Assembly (NCBI RefSeq): GCF_003201205.1
Contig: NZ_QICN01000003.1
Location: 62,001-126,000 of the forward strand
From: Sinimarinibacterium flocculans
Lineage (GTDB): Bacteria; Pseudomonadota; Gammaproteobacteria; Nevskiales; Nevskiaceae
Length of the DNA: 64,000 nt
Direction of reading: 5' to 3'
Positions 3,893 through 30,923 of the stretch are shown here, piece by piece. The notes under the pieces are model-generated. The model saw only the letters and a program-made list of their open reading frames with translations. It did not search any database and was not told where the DNA came from. The translations under genes were made by a program, and so were the position numbers. The stretch's first letter is position 1, and the number at the start of each line of letters is the position of its first letter.

Positions 3893-4978
3893 ATGGATGA
3901 CCTTGCCCCCACCGCCACCCCTCCGGATCCGGCGCAAATCGAGGCTTTCGCCGGCCGGCTCGGCCAGGCGCTCAACGATGCCGCGCTGGTGCAGATGTGC
4001 TCGATCGGGCACCGCACCGGCCTGTTCGACACACTCGCGCGGCTGCCGCCGTCGACCAGTGTGCGGATCGCGACCGCGGCCGCGCTCGACGAACGTTACG
4101 TGCGCGAATGGCTGGCCGCACTGGTGACCGCGCGCGTCGTGAGCTACGACCCGCACGAGCAGACCTACGCGTTGCCGGCGGCGCATGCGGCCTGCCTGAC
4201 GCGCGCCGCGACGCCCAACAACATCGCCGTCACCTGCCAGATGATGCCGCTGATGGGCGCGATGGAAGACCGCATCATCGACCGCTTCCGGCACGGCGGC
4301 GGCACCTGCTATCACGAGTACCCGCGCTTCCACGAGGTCATGGCCGAGGACAGCGGCCAGACCATCGTCGCCGGGCTATTCGATGGCGTGCTGCCGCTGG
4401 TCGACGGCCTGCAGCCGCGGCTGCAGGCCGGCATCGACGTGCTGGATGCCGGCTGCGGCCGCGGTCACGCACTGATGGCCATGGCGGCGCGCTATCCGCG
4501 CTCGCGGTTTGCCGGCTGCGACCTGTGCGAGGACGCGATCGAATGGGCAACCGACGAGTCGCGCCGCCGCGGCCTGCAGAACCTGCGCTTCGAAGTCCGC
4601 GACCTGAGCGACTTCACCTCGCCGTCGGCATTCGACTTCATCACCACCTTCGACGCCGTACACGACCAGAAGGACCCCGCCGGTCTGCTCGCCGGCATCG
4701 CCCGCAGCCTGCGACCCGGCGGCGTCTACCTGATGCAGGATATTGCCGGGTCGAGTCATCTGGAGCGCAACCTCGACCATCCCTTCGGCACTTTCATCTA
4801 CACCGTTTCCTGCATGCACTGCATGCCGGTCTCGCTCGGTCAGGGCGGCGCCGGGCTGGGCACGATGTGGGGGGAGGAGCTGGCCGTGCGGATGCTGCAC
4901 GATGCCGGGTTCCCGTCGGTCGAGCGGCGTCTGCGCGCCGAGGACCCACTGAACGTGTACTTCGTGGCGCGCATCTAG
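3893..4978 (+). CDS. Class I SAM-dependent methyltransferase with N-terminal winged helix
   Basis: A 361-residue protein. Residues 15-110 form a helical/winged-helix dimerisation domain like that of small-molecule O- or C-methyltransferases. The Rossmann SAM-binding core follows, with motif I DAGCGRG (about residue 184) and an acidic loop further on. The domain order resembles the Rv2258c-type bacterial methyltransferases; the substrate cannot be told. The start is fixed by AGGAG eight bases before ATG 3893; the frame extends further upstream without a ribosome site. It is convergent with the RES toxin gene. Confidence 0.85.
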   Translation: MDDLAPTATPPDPAQIEAFAGRLGQALNDAALVQMCSIGHRTGLFDTLARLPPSTSVRIATAAALDERYVREWLAALVTARVVSYDPHEQTYALPAAHAACLTRAATPNNIAVTCQMMPLMGAMEDRIIDRFRHGGGTCYHEYPRFHEVMAEDSGQTIVAGLFDGVLPLVDGLQPRLQAGIDVLDAGCGRGHALMAMAARYPRSRFAGCDLCEDAIEWATDESRRRGLQNLRFEVRDLSDFTSPSAFDFITTFDAVHDQKDPAGLLAGIARSLRPGGVYLMQDIAGSSHLERNLDHPFGTFIYTVSCMHCMPVSLGQGGAGLGTMWGEELAVRMLHDAGFPSVERRLRAEDPLNVYFVARI

Positions 4979-5000
4979 CGGCGGCGCAGCGCCGCCCGTC

Positions 5001-5720
5001 TCAGGCGAACGCGAAGCTCAGCGCCGACTGCTCGGCGACCGCATCGCCGCCGAACCGCGTCCAGCTCGCGCCCGCGGCGGTCACCGTCAGCCACCAGTTC
5101 TGCTCGTCGAGCAACCCGCCGTCGAAGGCCCGACAGGCCAGCACGGCCGCGCAGGCTCCGTGCTGCGGATCGCGCACCGAGGCGTAACGGATCAGGTCGA
5201 TGCCGGCATCGCGCGCCCGTTCGGCGAGGGCGTGGCAGGCCTCGTAGTCATCGGGCGCCATCCAGCGCTCGCGCGCCTGAATCCACGGCGCAACGAGCAG
5301 ATCGAGCGCCGGCCCGCGGACCTGGGCGCGGAACACCGTGTGCGCGACGGGCGGCAGCCGTTCGAGTCCGTCGCTGTCGGCGACGAAACGCCAGCGCCAC
5401 CAGCCGAGTTCGGCCAGGCTGGTGGCGCGCTGCTCGGCGCCGTACCAGACCCCCGCATCGAAGGCGCGGCGAAAGCGCGACGCCACCGGCGACGGATAGC
5501 GGAAGGGCGTGTGCAGCAGATAGTGCAGGTGCCGGCACTCGGCGGGGAGCGGCGGTTTGCTCGCTTCGAGGATGTCCTCGAGCAGCGCCTGTTCCCCGGC
5601 ATCGTCGACCAGGGCCATGGTCGCCACCAGGTGCTGCGCCTCGACGGCGCGCCACAGCCGCAGCTTGAGCGGCCGCGTCTCAGTTGCGACCGCGCGCCGC
5701 GTCCAGATAGGCAAGGACAT
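5001..5720 (-). CDS. RES-domain toxin of an Xre/RES toxin-antitoxin pair
   Basis: A 239-residue RES-fold protein. Characterised members of this toxin family degrade NAD+. The three residues that name the family are visible: Arg in the SRFRR segment (82-85), Glu104 in SLAE after a WYGA motif (92-95), and Ser181 in RYASVR. The start is the ATG at 5720, preceded by GGAGGG at a good distance; this overlaps the antitoxin's last 41 bases and implies translational coupling. The gene follows the antitoxin as in known Xre-RES modules. It is longer than many RES toxins because of a C-terminal extension. It is convergent with the methyltransferase gene. Confidence 0.82.
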   Translation of the reverse strand: MSLPIWTRRAVATETRPLKLRLWRAVEAQHLVATMALVDDAGEQALLEDILEASKPPLPAECRHLHYLLHTPFRYPSPVASRFRRAFDAGVWYGAEQRATSLAELGWWRWRFVADSDGLERLPPVAHTVFRAQVRGPALDLLVAPWIQARERWMAPDDYEACHALAERARDAGIDLIRYASVRDPQHGACAAVLACRAFDGGLLDEQNWWLTVTAAGASWTRFGGDAVAEQSALSFAFA

Positions 5721-25672: not shown

Positions 25673-28024
25673 TCAGCGCGTCTGCAGCGCGGCCAGTGCG
25701 GTGATCGCCTTTTGCGTGCGCGGGTGCTCGTCGCCCAGATCGCGACGCAGTACCGGAATCGAATGCTCGTAGGCGGCGCGCGCCGCCGCCGTGCGACCCA
25801 GGTGCACCAGCCCGTCGGCATAGTTCATCTGGAACAGCGCGTAGTGCAGATGGTCGGTACCGACCAGCGGCTCGGCATGCCGGAGTAGCGTCTCGAACAC
25901 CGCGACCGACTCGTCGTAGCGGGAGAGATGCTTCAGGGCATTGCCGAGATTGTTGTAGTCCGGCAGATCGGTGACCGTGGGACCGTCGGGATTCGCCTCG
26001 GCCTGGGCGATCAGGCCACGGTAGATGTCGGCCGCCTCCGTCCATTCGCCGGTCTCGCTGACGGTGTAGGCCCGCAGCGAGGCGACGTTGCGCGTCAGCT
26101 CTGCGTCCTCGCCCAGCTGACGCCGCAGACTTTCATGGGCCACGCGTGCCACCGACGCCGCCTCGCCGGCGCGGCCGTCGAGCGCGAGGATCGCGGCGAG
26201 ACTCACCTCCGCGGCGCGCGTCTGCGGATGATCCTCGCCGAGCACGCGCTGGCGGGTGGCGACCGTCTCGCGATAGATCGCCTCGGCCTCGGCATAGCGC
26301 GCCTGCTCGCGGTAGTTCAGGGCGATGACGTCCCGCGCGAGCTGCACGCGCGGATGGCCCGCGCCGTAGCGCGACCGCAGCCGCTCGATCACCTGCTGCG
26401 CCTGTTCGGCGGACTCGTCGTAGCGGGTCAGGTGATGCAGGGTCAGTGCGAGGTTGTAGCCTGCCTGCAGCGTGACGTCATCGTGCGTGCCGAGGGCGGA
26501 CTCGGCCTCGGGCAGGGTCTGCCGCAACTGCGCCTCGGCCTGATCCGGATAGCCCTGCAGCGCAAGGATCTCCGTGAGTTCGGTTTCCGCAGCCAGGCGC
26601 AATCGCCGTGCCGGCGCACCGGCGGCGGTCAGTTGCGGCAGCCATTCCTCGAGCTGCGCACGCGCCTCCGCTTCGCGGCCCGCTGCCTTCAGCGCCTGCG
26701 CCTGCTCCAGCCGCAGGCGGTCGCGGGTCTCCGGATCGCGCGTGGCGCCGGCGGCAGCCTCCAGCAGTTCGAGCCCGCGCGCTGCCAGCCCGAGGCTGAC
26801 GTAGGTATTGCCCAGCGTGCGCTGCAACTGTGCCTGCACCGCTGCCGGCAGCGACGGATCGGCCTCAATCTCGCCGCTGGCGACATCGAGCACGTCGCGT
26901 ACCGTCAGACGTTCGCCGAGTGCGCGTTCCGGGTCGGCCGCCGCAAACATGTCGCGCAGGAAGTCGTTGACGGCGGCAAGCTCCGCCGAGCGCTCCTCGG
27001 CCTCGGCGCGTGCGCGCGCCTCCGACCACGCGAACCGCAGCGAAACCGCCGTGGCCGCAAGCAGCGCCACCGCCATCATGCCGGCGGCGGCGGTCAGCGC
27101 GCGATGCCGGCGCACGAACAGGCCCAGCAGATAGCGCGCCGTCGGCGGTCTCGCAGTGATCGGCTGATGCGCGAGATGGCGCTCGATGTCGGCGGCCATT
27201 TCGGCCGCGGACCCGTAGCGCCGGGCCGGTTCGCGCGCCAGGGCCTTCATGACGATGGTTTCGACATCCCCGGCGGCCGACGGTACCGCGCGCGACAGAC
27301 GTGGCGGGTCGCTGTTGCGCACGATCTCGATCGCGCCGAGCAGCGTGGTCTGCGACAGGCCCGGATAGGGCGGCGCGCCCGAGAGCAGTTCGTATCCGAC
27401 GGCACCCAGCGCGTAGACATCGCTGCGTGCGTCGAGGCGTGCATCGCCGATCAACTGCTCCCAGCTCATGTACGGCAGGGTGCCGAGAATCTCACCCGCT
27501 GCGGTCATCCGCGTGAACTGCTCGTGGCCGATAACGCGCGCGACGCCGAAGTCGAGGATCTTCGGCTGATCCTGATCGTCGACGAGGATGTTCGCCGGCT
27601 TGAGATCGCGGTGGATCACGCCTTGGGTGTGGGCGTGGTGCACCGCCCGGCACACCGCAGCCAGCAGGTGCAAGCGCTCCGGCAGTGGCAGCGCATGCTC
27701 GCGCGCGTGAGTGATCAGATCGCGGCCGCGGACGTATTCCATGGCGAGATACGGCAGCGGCCCGGCCGGCGTCTGCGCGGTACCGCTGGCGTAGATCCGC
27801 GCGATGCCCGGGTGCTCCAGACCGGCAAGCAACTCCGCCTCCCGTTCGAAGCGCGGCTGCGCGTCGGGCCCGGCCGTGGCACGCAGGACCTTGAGGGCCA
27901 GCTCCCGTCGCGGGTGGTCCTGCTCGGCCAGATAGACGCGGCCCATGCCGCCCTCGCCGAGCAGCTGCAGGATGCGAAACGGGCCGATCTGGGGCGGGAG
28001 CGCGGCGTGGGAGTCGTCGGACAT
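25673..28024 (-). CDS. Hanks-type Ser/Thr protein kinase with TM helix and TPR repeats
   Basis: A 783-residue receptor-like kinase. The catalytic domain (residues 15-285) has the Gly loop GEGGMGRVY, Lys45 in LALKVL, the catalytic loop HRDLKPAN (Asp140) and DFG (158-160). The APE/SPE position reads YMSWEQ, with Trp188 where Pro is usual. A membrane helix (about 309-330) follows. The remaining 450 residues are TPR-type repeats of about 42 residues that would lie in the periplasm and could bind peptides. There is no adjacent PP2C phosphatase or FHA gene. Confidence 0.93.
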   Translation of the reverse strand: MSDDSHAALPPQIGPFRILQLLGEGGMGRVYLAEQDHPRRELALKVLRATAGPDAQPRFEREAELLAGLEHPGIARIYASGTAQTPAGPLPYLAMEYVRGRDLITHAREHALPLPERLHLLAAVCRAVHHAHTQGVIHRDLKPANILVDDQDQPKILDFGVARVIGHEQFTRMTAAGEILGTLPYMSWEQLIGDARLDARSDVYALGAVGYELLSGAPPYPGLSQTTLLGAIEIVRNSDPPRLSRAVPSAAGDVETIVMKALAREPARRYGSAAEMAADIERHLAHQPITARPPTARYLLGLFVRRHRALTAAAGMMAVALLAATAVSLRFAWSEARARAEAEERSAELAAVNDFLRDMFAAADPERALGERLTVRDVLDVASGEIEADPSLPAAVQAQLQRTLGNTYVSLGLAARGLELLEAAAGATRDPETRDRLRLEQAQALKAAGREAEARAQLEEWLPQLTAAGAPARRLRLAAETELTEILALQGYPDQAEAQLRQTLPEAESALGTHDDVTLQAGYNLALTLHHLTRYDESAEQAQQVIERLRSRYGAGHPRVQLARDVIALNYREQARYAEAEAIYRETVATRQRVLGEDHPQTRAAEVSLAAILALDGRAGEAASVARVAHESLRRQLGEDAELTRNVASLRAYTVSETGEWTEAADIYRGLIAQAEANPDGPTVTDLPDYNNLGNALKHLSRYDESVAVFETLLRHAEPLVGTDHLHYALFQMNYADGLVHLGRTAAARAAYEHSIPVLRRDLGDEHPRTQKAITALAALQTR

Positions 28025-28072
28025 GGCCGGGCGATGCTACTGCAGTGGCGCAGGCGCCGCTGCCCGTGAAAA

Positions 28073-28100
28073 CGGACAACGTTCAGAACAGCGATACAAT
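28073..28100 (+). promoter_or_regulatory. Promoter of the tetR gene
   Basis: CGGACA (-35, 28073-28078), a 16-bp spacer and TACAAT (-10, 28095-28100) place the start site at about 28107, on top of the tetR ATG at 28106, suggesting a leaderless or nearly leaderless mRNA. GTTCAGAAC, a small palindrome, lies between the two hexamers and could be an autoregulatory site. Confidence 0.5.
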
Positions 28101-28105
28101 GTGCC

Positions 28106-28708
28106 ATGGGCCGACGCAACCAGCATTCCCGCGAACAGCAGCGCGACATGGCGATCGCCGCCGCGGAGCTGATCCTCGTGCGCGAAGGCTTCGGCGGCCT
28201 GTCGATGCGCAAGGTGGCGGATGCCATCGGCTACACGGTCGGCCAGCTGTACCTGATCTTCCAGAACCAGGACGACCTGCTCGCCACCATCAACGAACGC
28301 ACCACCGACGCCATCTACGGTCACCTGCGCGACCGCAGCGAGGCGATCGACGAGCCGCTCGCCCGCCTGCGCGCGCTGGCCGCAGCCTACATCGAGTTCG
28401 CGCAACGCCACCCGCACCGTTTCCGGATGCTGTTCGAGCACCAGCTGCCGCCGGCCATGGAGCCGCGCGTCAGTGGCGAGCTGCGCATCAAGCGCATGTT
28501 CGAACTCGTCGAGTCCAATCTCGCACCACTGCTGCCAGGCGCGCCGCCCGCGCGCCTGCGCCAGACCGCAGCGACGCTGTGGGGCGGCGTCCACGGCATC
28601 GCCGCGCTTGCGGTCAGCGGCAAGTTCAAGTGGGCCGGCAACCGCGACTTCGAGCGCTACAGCGACGAACTCGTGTCGACCTTCGCCGCGGGACTCGCCG
28701 CCGGCTGA
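28106..28708 (+). CDS. TetR family transcriptional regulator
   Basis: A 200-residue TetR repressor. The N-terminal HTH spans about residues 15-60, with the typical GFGGLSMRKVADAIGYTVGQLYLIFQ pattern given here in part (SMRKVADAIG, then QLYLIF). The C-terminal ligand domain contains WGGVHGIAAL, a WHG-type signature. The gene converges on the yiaAB/pspA operon 25 bp away, making that operon a candidate target. No ribosome site precedes the ATG, which agrees with the promoter position. Confidence 0.88.
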   Translation: MGRRNQHSREQQRDMAIAAAELILVREGFGGLSMRKVADAIGYTVGQLYLIFQNQDDLLATINERTTDAIYGHLRDRSEAIDEPLARLRALAAAYIEFAQRHPHRFRMLFEHQLPPAMEPRVSGELRIKRMFELVESNLAPLLPGAPPARLRQTAATLWGGVHGIAALAVSGKFKWAGNRDFERYSDELVSTFAAGLAAG

Positions 28709-28732
28709 GGCGCTCCCAATCCGCCGGGCGCC

Positions 28733-29020
28733 TCACCGCTCCACGCCGTACTCCTTCAGCAGCTTCTCGGTGCGTGCCTGCGCGAGCTGGTTGATCAGCT
28801 TTCCCGCCTCGAACTGGTCCCGGAGCGTCTTCGCCAGCGTGAAGGTGGCGCCGGTCAGGAACAAGGTGCCGAGCACCAGATAGCCGCGCATCCAGATCGG
28901 GACGTCACCCATCATCACGACGCCGAACAGCATGCCGCCCAGCGCGCAAGCGAAGGACACCTTGACGAAGAACACCCAGGCCGGGGAATCGAATCGGGTG
29001 CTGTCGTACTGCATCTCCAT
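28733..29020 (-). CDS. YiaA/YiaB family two-helix membrane protein
   Basis: A 95-residue protein with two membrane helices (about residues 15-38 and 44-63) separated by a short WMRGY turn, then the conserved FTLAKTLRDQFEA segment that marks the YiaAB two-helix domain, and a helical tail. Function unknown; YiaAB genes recur near PspA-type genes. CAGGAG lies 7 bases before the ATG. It is the third gene after pspA and the 55-residue peptide. Confidence 0.8.
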   Translation of the reverse strand: MEMQYDSTRFDSPAWVFFVKVSFACALGGMLFGVVMMGDVPIWMRGYLVLGTLFLTGATFTLAKTLRDQFEAGKLINQLAQARTEKLLKEYGVER

Positions 29021-29033
29021 GATCGGGCTCCTG

Positions 29034-29201
29034 TCAGAAATGTGCGATCAACGCGCCGAACCAGCGGCCCGGCGCCTGCGCATCGGCACACAGCACGCAC
29101 AGACCCGCGAGGATCAGCGTACCGATCAGCAGGCGCAGCGTACCGTGCAGGGCGCGTGCGCCGTGTCGGGCGCTTTCCACCATGTTGTGAACAATATTCA
29201 T
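29034..29201 (-). CDS. 55-residue single-pass membrane peptide in the pspA operon
   Basis: The ATG at 29201 has GTGAG 6 bases upstream, overlapping the pspA stop; the ORF ends 13 bp before yiaAB. The product has a basic N-terminal helix (VESARHGARALHG), one membrane helix (about residues 21-39, LRLLIGTLILAGLCVLCAD) and a short C-terminal tail APGRWFGALIAHF. The tight spacing (7 bp after pspA) and own ribosome site make it a real gene. It may be a small partner of PspA, analogous to PspB or PspD but not alignable by eye. Confidence 0.7.
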   Translation of the reverse strand: MNIVHNMVESARHGARALHGTLRLLIGTLILAGLCVLCADAQAPGRWFGALIAHF

Positions 29202-29208
29202 TTCAAGC

Positions 29209-29895
29209 TCACGAAGAGGGCGATGCCGCGTTCACGCGAGCCCTGAGCGCCGCCATCGCGGCCTCGACCTCCGCGGCGGAGGTCACCCGGTCGGCGTCCC
29301 GCTCAAGGCTCTGGGCCTCCTCGACCAGTTCGGCCGCCGCGGCGGCCTCCGCTTCGAGGCCGCCGGCCCGGCGGGCCAGACGATCCATCTTCTGCGCACG
29401 TTCCATCGCGCGGCTGTAGTGGTCACGAAACTGCAGCGCTGCTCCCGCGGCGTCGGCGGCGTGCTGGCTGGCGCGAATCTGCGTGGCGCGGGCCTGCGCC
29501 TCGACAAGTTCCCGCTTGAGTTGCTCGACCTGCAGCCGTACGCGCTGCACCGACTGGTCGGCGGACGTCAGCGGACGTTCCAGGGATTGCGCCTGCGCGC
29601 GGGACGCCACGGCGCGTTGCAGCGCCTGGCGAGCGACCGTTTCGTCGCCGGCGCGCAGCAGGGCTTCGGCCCTGGCTTCCCAGGCGTCGGCGTCCTCCAT
29701 GAGTTGCGCACGTTCCTGCTCGAGGCGCTTTTTCGCCCCCATCGCCACCACCCGTGCGCGCTGTGCCGACTGCAGATCGTCAGTCAGATCGCGCAGGACC
29801 TGCTGGGCCATGACGTCCGGGTCCTCGATCTCGTCGAGGCCGTGGTGGGCCTGCGCGCTGAGCATCTCGCGGATTCTTGCCATCAGACTTGCCAT
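29209..29895 (-). CDS. pspA: PspA/IM30 family membrane-stress protein
   Basis: A 228-residue PspA/IM30 protein: an amphipathic start (SLMARIREMLSAQAH), the ESCRT-III-like family phrase LDEIEDPDVMAQQVLRDL, and then long coiled coil to the C-terminus. The family coats and seals stressed inner membranes. GAGGA is 6 bases before ATG 29895 (an ATG 3 bases further upstream is possible). It heads a three-gene operon with a 55-residue membrane peptide and YiaAB. There is no pspF and no sigma-54 site; palindromes in the promoter suggest a repressor instead. Confidence 0.9.
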   Translation of the reverse strand: MASLMARIREMLSAQAHHGLDEIEDPDVMAQQVLRDLTDDLQSAQRARVVAMGAKKRLEQERAQLMEDADAWEARAEALLRAGDETVARQALQRAVASRAQAQSLERPLTSADQSVQRVRLQVEQLKRELVEAQARATQIRASQHAADAAGAALQFRDHYSRAMERAQKMDRLARRAGGLEAEAAAAAELVEEAQSLERDADRVTSAAEVEAAMAALRARVNAASPSS

Positions 29896-29918
29896 CATGA
29901 TTCCTCGTAGCACGGTAA

Positions 29919-29964
29919 TGAACGCCGCTCACTACAGCTTTATATGAACGGCGTTCAGTGTCAA
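29919..29964 (-). promoter_or_regulatory. pspA promoter with two palindromic operators
   Basis: On the minus strand TTGACA (29959-29964) and TATAAA (29939-29944) are 14 bp apart. A perfect 13-bp palindrome, TGAACG-CCGTTCA type (29945-29957), lies exactly in the spacer, and a second copy with one mismatch (29919-29931) covers the expected start site. Two copies 26 bp centre to centre on one face of the DNA are typical of TetR-family repression. The short spacer implies a weak or activator-helped promoter. Confidence 0.6.
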
Positions 29965-30071
29965 GCGGTGGCGCATCGGATTCCGCACGTGTCACACAAT
30001 CTTCATGCAACCGTCATCGACCGCACACCCGCGCTCGGGATCATGAGATCAGTGAAATCAGGAACATGCGG

Positions 30072-30923
30072 ATGAGCGCAACAGGCAAGCGACGCCCCAC
30101 GAACCGCCGCAAGGAACAGGGCAAGACGCACTACCGGGCGATCTGGATCTCGGACGTGCACCTCGGAACCCCCGGCTGCAAGGCCGAGCACCTGGTCGAT
30201 TTTCTCAAGCACCACACCTGCGACCGTCTCTACCTCGTCGGCGACATCATCGATGGCTGGAAACTGCGCTCCGGCTGGTACTGGCCCCAGGAGCACACCA
30301 ACGTGGTCCGCAAGGTCCTGACCAAGGCCAAGCGGCAGACCAAGGTGTTCTACGTCACCGGCAACCACGACGAGTTCCTGCGCAAGTTCGTCGACTACAA
30401 GCTCGAGATCGGCAACATCCGGCTGGTCAACGAGGCGGTGCACGAGACCGCCGACGGACGCCGCCTGCTCGTCATCCACGGTGACCTGTTCGACGTGATC
30501 ACGCGGTATCACCGCTGGATCGCCATGGCCGGCGATGCCTTGTACGAAGGGACGATGCGCTTCAACTTCTGGTTCAACCGTGCGCGTGCGATGCTGGGCA
30601 TGCGCTACTGGTCGCTGTCGGCCTTCGCCAAGCAGCACGTGAAGACGGCCGTGAACATCGTCTCGACCTTCGAGGACTCCCTGGCTCGCGAGTGTCGCCG
30701 CCGCGGCTTCGATGGCGTGGTCTGCGGTCACATCCATCACGCCGACGCCCGCGACATCGGCGGCGTGACCTACTACAACTGCGGCGACTGGGTCGAATCC
30801 TGCACGGCGCTGACCGAGGACATGAACGGCCGCATCCAGGTCGTGCGCTGGGTCCAGCTCGATCATCTGAACCAGGCCTCTCAGAAGGTCACGCCACTGA
30901 GCGGCGCACGCAAGGCCGCCTGA
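30072..30923 (+). CDS. UDP-2,3-diacylglucosamine diphosphatase-like metallophosphoesterase
   Basis: A 283-residue calcineurin-like phosphoesterase of the LpxH-related family. Metal-binding motifs run in order: SDVHLG, GDIIDGW, GNHDEFLR, VIHGDLFD and CGHIHHAD. These match the two-metal site of LpxH, which cleaves UDP-diacylglucosamine in lipid A synthesis, but the basic N-terminus and greater length place it in the longer LpxH2-like branch whose substrate is uncertain. ATG 30072 has AGGA at 8 bases; ATG 30066 is too close to it. It lies divergent from pspA and 65 bp before coaE. Confidence 0.85.
   Translation: MSATGKRRPTNRRKEQGKTHYRAIWISDVHLGTPGCKAEHLVDFLKHHTCDRLYLVGDIIDGWKLRSGWYWPQEHTNVVRKVLTKAKRQTKVFYVTGNHDEFLRKFVDYKLEIGNIRLVNEAVHETADGRRLLVIHGDLFDVITRYHRWIAMAGDALYEGTMRFNFWFNRARAMLGMRYWSLSAFAKQHVKTAVNIVSTFEDSLARECRRRGFDGVVCGHIHHADARDIGGVTYYNCGDWVESCTALTEDMNGRIQVVRWVQLDHLNQASQKVTPLSGARKAA

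Follow-up and report, generated by a model that had tools for sequence, protein, structure and literature searches.

A PspA-YiaAB operon with a predicted TetR-type regulator in Sinimarinibacterium flocculans as a candidate PspF-independent phage-shock module

How might a pspA operon be controlled when it is accompanied by neither PspF nor a sigma-54 promoter, and what might such an operon do? The question is raised by a locus of Sinimarinibacterium flocculans situated within a 64,000-nucleotide stretch of contig NZ_QICN01000003.1 (positions 62,001 to 126,000; hereafter the window), which belongs to a genome of 4.4 Mb in 39 contigs. The locus combines (i) a gene for a TetR-family regulator, (ii) an operon that holds pspA, a small open reading frame (ORF), and yiaAB, and (iii) TGAACnnnGTTCA palindromes at the pspA promoter. 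The reading favored here, which is considered probable, is that of a PspF-independent phage-shock module, in which a dedicated TetR acting on TGAACnnnGTTCA would respond to a lipid-derived signal, and PspA with YiaAB would carry out membrane repair.

The pspA gene (29209-29898, − strand) encodes a divergent PspA/IM30-family protein of 229 amino acids, of which residues 5-221 match PF04012 with 92.2 bits (cut-off 33.9). After a gap of 7 nucleotides comes an ORF of 55 amino acids (29034-29201, − strand) that has one hydrophobic segment (TLRLLIGTLILAGLCVLCA) and no Pfam or NCBIfam match, and after a further 13 nucleotides yiaAB (28733-29020, − strand), which encodes a single-domain, two-helix inner-membrane YiaAB protein of 95 amino acids (PF05360, 52.3 bits; cut-off 26.6). 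The tetR gene (28106-28708, + strand; 200 amino acids) converges on the operon and ends 24 nucleotides from yiaAB; its product matches both PF00440 (31.2 bits; cut-off 24) and PF13305 (61 bits; cut-off 26.8). Coordinates and domain matches agree with the initial annotation, which had described a tight pspA-peptide-yiaAB operon with a convergent tetR gene.

The pspA promoter (29937-29964, − strand) is of the sigma-70 type, with a −35 hexamer TTGACA (29964-29959) and a −10 hexamer TAAAGC (29942-29937) separated by a 16-nucleotide spacer. Read from the − strand, the order of elements is TTGACA, operator 1, TAAAGC, operator 2. Operator 1 (29945-29957; TGAACGCCGTTCA on the − strand) is a perfect palindrome between −35 and −10, while operator 2 (29919-29931; TGAGCGGCGTTCA on the − strand) carries one mismatch and covers the expected transcription start. 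Both palindromes and their placement had been noted from the outset, although the two copies are not identical as had then been assumed. The promoter was not listed by a promoter scan because its −10 element is poor; its layout recurs in the orthologues, as judged by eye. No sigma-54-like site with at most two mismatches lies within 450 bp upstream of the window pspA, and no PspF-like protein is present among six proteins scanned at 25673-30923, as had also been claimed. The operon thus lacks the combination of PspF and a sigma-54 promoter that marks classical PspFABC, and it lacks PspC, the sole genomic match to which is on contig C1. Two further operators had been overlooked. One is internal (29188-29200; TGAATATTGTTCA on the − strand, one mismatch) and lies over the peptide start codon; the other is weak (28073-28085; CGGACAACGTTCA, two mismatches) and overlaps a −35-like hexamer in the tetR promoter, the −10 element of which is TACAAT (28095-28100).

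With at most one mismatch, TGAACNNNGTTCA occurs four times in the window, a number reached in none of 100 shuffles; three of these sites fall in the pspA locus and the fourth (44398) in the ftsZ coding sequence. At two mismatches, TGAACGNCGTTCA gives five sites, and the weak sites are not significant alone because 7 of 100 shuffles also reached five. In the whole genome, exact TGAACNNNGTTCA occurs once, at operator 1 (three occurrences for the reversed control pattern), and relaxed TGARCNNNGYTCA four times, twice at the pspA operators and twice outside the locus (C3:293311 and C13:66713). A regulon extending beyond the pspA locus was considered and set aside, as these four genomic sites do not exceed the five of the reversed control. 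The genomic rarity of the exact site is as would be expected for a dedicated local regulator.

The operators recur in relatives. All 15 Nevskiales loci have an operator upstream of pspA, and 12 of the 14 that hold tetR have one (at most two mismatches) within 120 bp upstream of that gene. After L065 had been dropped as a near-copy of L066, both from the operator enrichment and from the first TetR tree, 38 sites with at most one mismatch were counted in the 5,813 positions of three zones (upstream of pspA, at the pspA-yiaAB junction, and upstream of tetR) and none in 120,815 positions elsewhere in the 14 loci; as the zones were drawn with the sites already in view and the loci are related to one another, this contrast is descriptive and carries no test. 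In the first tree, for which L089, L093, and L096 were not extracted, 13 Nevskiales module TetRs form a single clade (support 100/97). Judged from these sequence patterns, binding of TetR to the palindromes and repression of both transcripts are strongly predicted, and the early suggestion of a repressor-controlled, sigma-70-type promoter with TetR as its likely regulator is strengthened by the recurrence of the operators.

The palindromes could alternatively be bound by some other factor, for example a LexA-like one, with tetR controlling something else. LexA boxes have the form GAAC-spacer-GTTC with a 4-nucleotide gap, and the sites described here resemble them; the gap here, however, is 3 nucleotides, the exact site is found in this genome only at this locus, and in most relatives a site is also present at the tetR promoter. 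The site moreover tracks the TetR family across lineages with differing neighbors and appears to covary with the TetR recognition helix. Symmetric TGAGCnnnGCTCA is confined to eight loci with the recognition helix CANGAVY, IANGAVY, or VANGAVY, and in the one remaining member of the nine-locus group with an Asn-type helix (VSNG, L154) the operator is GAGCnnnGCTC. The full TGAGCnnnGCTCA was found in none of the loci with V, L, I, or P before the helix glycine; the 11-mer GAGCnnnGCTC is present also in 4 of 41 Val loci. In these assignments L145 is CANGAVY on a second reading, and the script misread L087 and found no helix for L153. A second TetR tree, which left out L094, L095, and L097, had long branches, and drew a program warning of false joins, was used solely for the statement that one change is needed per helix group. 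Control of the palindromes by a factor other than TetR is regarded as highly improbable.

The predicted control by TetR also extends, by the same signs, well beyond Nevskiales, and the module is distributed more widely than the initial annotation supposed, since it is found in other classes of Pseudomonadota. A YiaAB profile search was positive in 31 of 398 sampled Pseudomonadota genomes. Among 23 pspA-yiaAB loci of other classes, 18 have a TetR of the same family in the flank (divergent in all 18), and 20 have an exact TGARCnnnGYTCA near the 5′ end of pspA, as do all three plasmid loci (Thioclava and two Rhizobium). Over these 26 loci, TGARCnnnGYTCA has 59 matches within the zone and 2 elsewhere, both just beyond the zone edge. 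The annotation of the Thioclava plasmid NZ_CP135445 reads TetR/AcrR, PspA/IM30, and YiaA/YiaB, and in Rhizobium lusitanum tetR, pspA, and yiaAB lie side by side; a plasmid search with the window YiaAB protein gave no match. An LplT-Aas-type gene is present in 5 of the 24 other-class YiaAB loci.

The pairing of YiaAB with PspA is closer still. Single-domain YiaAB is encoded beside pspA in 55 of 56 resolvable loci: 13 of 13 in family f1, 2 of 2 in f4, 14 of 14 Marinobacter and Pseudomonas neustonica loci with a Cro/C1-type regulator, 3 of 3 resolvable loci in the class sample, and 23 of 24 in the phylum sample, where the two genes share a strand. L104, at a contig end, is the sole unresolvable locus. 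Adjacency of pspA was not selected for, because the counted loci were found through YiaAB, and only the two f4 loci through PspA. The exception among the resolvable loci, L149, holds YiaAB, an LplT-Aas-type gene, a family TetR, and two exact palindromes, without pspA. For double-domain yiaAB, pspA was present in the fetched flank of none of 10 genes (11 loci, with one gene represented twice and a gene of G819 excluded for want of a locus). The YiaAB-PspA operons of L038-L051, L106, and L108 have Cro/C1-type regulators of one family, a relative of which precedes double-domain yiaAB in L103. By sequence comparison, the conserved core is PspA plus YiaAB; many lineages join it to TetR and its operator, others to a Cro/C1-type regulator. 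The window YiaAB is 66-89% identical to 10 relatives. The closest named relatives by YiaAB are a Nevskiales metagenome-assembled genome, Sinimarinibacterium, and Solimonas. The predicted structure of the window YiaAB (predicted local distance difference test score, pLDDT, 72.8; predicted template-modeling score 0.45; helices at 13-36 and 42-90) is too weak for fold comparison. From this gene context we infer a membrane-stress function for the module and a partnership between PspA and YiaAB.

Which signal such a TetR would read can be approached through its family, which has members in 42 of the 369 genomes sampled from the class, the genome of S. flocculans included (E values up to 1e-20). Twenty-nine loci outside the module (L069-L097) were examined, and 12 further genomes yielded no locus. 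In the fetched flanks of at most 1.5 kb, none of the 29 has a tblastn match to the module pspA or yiaAB. In 20 of them, the 300 bp upstream of tetR contain a palindrome with no more than one mismatch, and in total 49 such palindromes occur in 8,729 upstream positions and 1 in 92,010 positions elsewhere. Many of these loci adjoin, by eye, Aas-type or VIT-domain genes. Matches to NF005291 (acyl-ACP--phospholipid O-acyltransferase) were obtained in L074, L082, and L084 and to TIGR03788 in one locus, L070, all of them below cut-off and in genes cut by the locus ends.

These loci bear on a variant of the module in which the switch is protein-based, such that PspA or YiaAB captures TetR at the membrane, or comes off it under stress, and no ligand takes part. 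PspA restrains PspF by direct contact, which provides a precedent, and the apparently strict locality of the TetR is compatible with a loop of this kind. Family TetRs with the same operator nonetheless stand beside lipid genes, and because such loci lack a module pspA match nearby, the family appears able to work without PspA. The C-terminal domain of the window TetR, in addition, matches an ordinary TetR ligand-domain family. A protein-based switch is therefore viewed as improbable, and a ligand-responsive TetR is preferred. An AlphaFold model of the window TetR (pLDDT 89.3, from a 12-row alignment) finds its best fold matches among TetR structures, with FasR, FadR, and KstR, as well as RamR and others, in the top 50. 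In a sequence search of solved structures the best match is 3cjd, named merely as a TetR-family regulator, and none of the NCBIfam cut-offs for named TetR equivalogs (FasR, AcrR, MtrR, and others) was reached, the best score being 35.4 against 330 for FasR. Neighboring phospholipid acyltransferase genes and the structural matches to FasR, FadR, and KstR point weakly to a lipid-like ligand.

The 55-amino-acid ORF that separates pspA from yiaAB probably encodes a small membrane protein. An ORF with one hydrophobic segment occupies this position in 9 of the 15 Nevskiales loci, and over 444 pooled codons the GC content at the first, second, and third codon positions is coding-like (0.70/0.455/0.836). 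In all nine of these loci an operator lies at the junction (one mismatch in eight, two in L058), and in none of the six loci without the peptide, where the junctions are short (22-71 nucleotides) or, in L063, overlapping. The junction operator spans the first codons in four loci (MNIVHN, MNKDQF, MNIDQY, and MNTDHP), lies 5′ of the ATG in four Solimonas-type loci, and is out of the peptide frame in L058. This pattern suggests a constraint at the peptide start that acts on the DNA as well as on the peptide.

A competing view is that no protein is made from this ORF and that the stretch serves as a regulatory spacer, which holds an operator and perhaps an internal promoter as well. Identity to the window peptide is 16-38%, indicative of fast drift, and the ratio of nonsynonymous to synonymous change (pN/pS) among four Solimonas-type sequences, 0.71, is not different from shuffles (108 of 1,000 were as low). 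The start (29201 and its equivalents in relatives) lies in or beside the operator without a clear ribosome-binding site by eye, and presence of the ORF is tied to the internal operator. The coding-like composition and the single hydrophobic segment retained in nine of nine loci speak against a mere spacer, which is judged unlikely while deserving of some weight. Even as a small membrane protein, the peptide is excluded as a core component by its absence from 6 of the 15 Nevskiales loci and by the empty gaps in other classes. Of 26 pspA-yiaAB loci there, 25 have no comparable hydrophobic ORF in the gap: 24 have no ORF of at least 30 codons, and that of L138 lacks a hydrophobic stretch. The gap of L147 cannot be judged because the frames overlap. 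The combination pspA-peptide-yiaAB-tetR, which the initial annotation proposed to look for in other genomes, recurs in part: pspA-yiaAB-tetR widely, the peptide in some Nevskiales.

The mechanism envisaged is as follows. TetR would bind the TGAACnnnGTTCA palindromes over the sigma-70-type pspA promoter and block RNA polymerase. Weaker sites would be occupied as well, at the tetR promoter and, in the lineage of S. flocculans, where the peptide gene begins. Release of TetR would follow from inner-membrane damage, signaled most likely by a fatty acid, an acyl-CoA, or a lysophospholipid. The released operon would then yield the PspA/IM30 protein, which would coat and repair the membrane, together with YiaAB as a membrane-embedded PspA partner in the role that PspB/PspC have elsewhere. 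In some Nevskiales the small one-helix peptide would be made as well. The lipid ligand and the roles of the peptide and of the internal operator are speculative parts of this scheme.

Expression data fit an induction of the module by stress. In Rhizobium tropici CIAT 899 under acid stress, the portion of the published report available lists PspA RS28825 as up (4.87 and 4.42) and the hypothetical protein of the adjacent tag RS28820 as up (4.46, in one condition), and names TetR RS28830 among the transcription factors identified (PMC5936775). The same portion suggests efflux for the acid-responsive TetRs (PMC5936775), and most studied TetR regulators control efflux pumps, according to the part available of a second source (PMC3511530). 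Both points would suit a locus for detergent or solvent tolerance under ordinary TetR control, with PspA and YiaAB as mere stress passengers. No transporter family was found, however, in the six window proteins or in five genes between yiaAB and tetR in relatives, the other neighbors being unscanned, and regulator, operator, pspA, and yiaAB remain together in distant lineages. A tolerance locus of this type is thought quite improbable.

Several observations weigh against the favored module with its lipid-responsive TetR. The window's own tetR site is weak, with two mismatches, and L065 and L066 have no operator upstream of tetR; likewise, 9 of the 29 gammaproteobacterial TetR loci outside the module have no palindrome upstream, and L141, L144, and L154 have no exact TGARCnnnGYTCA. 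The covariation of recognition helix and operator variants is suggestive rather than strong because it reflects about two evolutionary events, and five of the eight ANG loci also retain one TGAACnnnGTTCA site. Of 58 family genomes, just 13 were found to have YiaAB; the module is accordingly dispensable or mobile. The argument for a lipid ligand is drawn from neighboring genes and distant structural matches, RamR among them. For R. tropici, differential expression was called at p below 0.15 and RS28830 is named without direction in the portion of the report available (PMC5936775). The gene order is that of R. lusitanum, the R. tropici plasmid having been absent from the matches, and RS28820 is a candidate YiaAB.

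The initial annotation placed the operon in place of the classical Psp system, and for S. flocculans this part of the claim does not stand. The S. flocculans genome holds a second, more typical pspA, with a gene for a PspF-type enhancer-binding protein on the other strand and PspC after pspA, and a sigma-54-like site with a GG/GC core (two mismatches) 376 bp upstream. Upstream sigma-54 matches of the same quality, with two mismatches, are present at 5 of the other 14 module loci (L057, L061, L063, L065, and L066); as two mismatches are not significant alone, the argument for the classical site depends on the GG/GC core and the adjacent PspF. With pspF, a typical pspA, and pspC all present in this genome, the window operon supplements the classical system and does not replace it. 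The two PspA proteins are only distantly alike: the window PspA is 23% identical to the classical one, 41-51% to 11 orthologues of its own family, and 26% to that of L065, and it scores 63.1 bits against the cut-off of 242.95 of the classical PspA equivalog TIGR02977. The classical locus (contig C1, approximately 697.4-700.1k; L001 and L067) has about 510 bp between pspF and pspA, a stretch that includes the sigma-54-like site and, by eye, apparently a small gene; a different TetR-like gene seems, likewise by eye, to lie beyond the classical pspC.

Among the 15 module genomes, a PspC match was found in five (G000, which is that of S. flocculans, G004, G005, G064, and G070) and in none of the other ten; three of the ten (G015, G026, and G028) encode a second PspA. 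The classical system may have given way to the module in these ten PspC-negative genomes, in which PspF was not searched for and some assemblies are incomplete. A broader proposal is put forward tentatively, with belief leaning slightly toward doubt: the module would be a second PspF-independent Psp system in Alpha- and Gammaproteobacteria, in which YiaAB would be the equivalent of PspB/PspC, TetR would read phospholipid damage, and PspA repair would be tied to LplT-Aas lysophospholipid re-acylation. It would replace the classical system in Solimonas-like PspC-negative bacteria, and a separately repressed peptide would have been gained in some Nevskiales.

The surroundings of the module vary. 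In the window, a gene for a serine/threonine kinase with TPR repeats (25673-28024, − strand) is divergent from tetR, and the weak tetR operator lies in the short region that they share; the kinase gave no tblastn match in the relatives' loci fetched at that stage. In several relatives the gene 3′ of yiaAB encodes a Peptidase_C92 protein (YiiX-type, by Pfam, in L053 and L060; alike by eye in L054 and L061). Between yiaAB and tetR there is an alpha/beta hydrolase gene in L057 and a fatty-acid hydroxylase gene in L058. From about residue 174 onward, the L063 pspA (4968-5597) no longer follows the reading frame of its relatives, and it runs into yiaAB in a different frame, which gives it the look of a damaged or misassembled copy.

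In the literature searched, the YiaAB family name appears in one paper, as a table entry for Variovorax. No publication with both YiaA and PspA was found, which is not proof that the pairing is unpublished, and a search for PspA with TetR gave nothing beyond R. tropici. Searched for a TetR that senses lipids and has Aas or sortase targets, the literature likewise gave none. The main text of two Psp surveys, in the parts available, mentions neither YiaA nor TetR (PMC11237479, PMC9239133), their supplements and web data lying outside the search, and the available parts of two other papers contain no adjacent TetR-PspA pair (PMC11406972, PMC5575495). From its occurrence in genomes, the module looks widespread but little described. 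Beyond the PspF, Lia, and ClgR models, little is known of how PspA is controlled. The set of TetR, operator, and YiaAB offers a regulator open to direct testing, a membrane partner predicted for PspA where PspB/PspC are absent, and a candidate function for the YiaAB family.

PspA systems form the bacterial branch of ESCRT-III-type membrane remodeling (PMC8281802, from the part available), and pspA tends to co-locate with helix-turn-helix regulators in several phyla (PMC9239133, likewise), so that a TetR beside pspA fits a recognized general trend. One close comparison is with classical PspF-PspABC of Gammaproteobacteria, which likewise has a PspA/IM30 effector, small membrane proteins in the operon, and a dedicated local regulator. 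Here, in contrast, there is a TetR with a sigma-70-type promoter instead of PspF with sigma-54, YiaAB instead of PspB/PspC, and a divergent PspA in a genome that has the classical locus as well. The PspA-YiaAB operons of Marinobacter, Pseudomonas neustonica, and their relatives share the adjacent pair but differ in their yiaAB-pspA order, their Cro/C1-type regulator family, and, in the loci listed, a gap of a few nucleotides that leaves no room for a peptide. The alphaproteobacterial loci (Thioclava NZ_CP135445 and Rhizobium lusitanum) share the wider TetR family, a pspA gene followed by yiaAB, and TGAACnnnGTTCA; they differ in that TetR is divergent, the promoter often has three sites, a comparable peptide ORF is lacking, and, in some loci of this type, an LplT-Aas-type gene follows yiaAB. 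Gammaproteobacterial TetRs beside Aas-type and marine sortase-target genes belong to the same TetR family and have the same operator, but their fetched flanks hold no module pspA or yiaAB match, and their neighbors are acyl-ACP--phospholipid acyltransferase and TIGR03788-type genes. Mycobacterial clgR-pspA-M-N and Bacillus liaIH-GFSR, as described in the available part of PMC11237479, resemble the module in placing a PspA homologue under a non-PspF regulator, while differing from it in both their regulators and their membrane partners.

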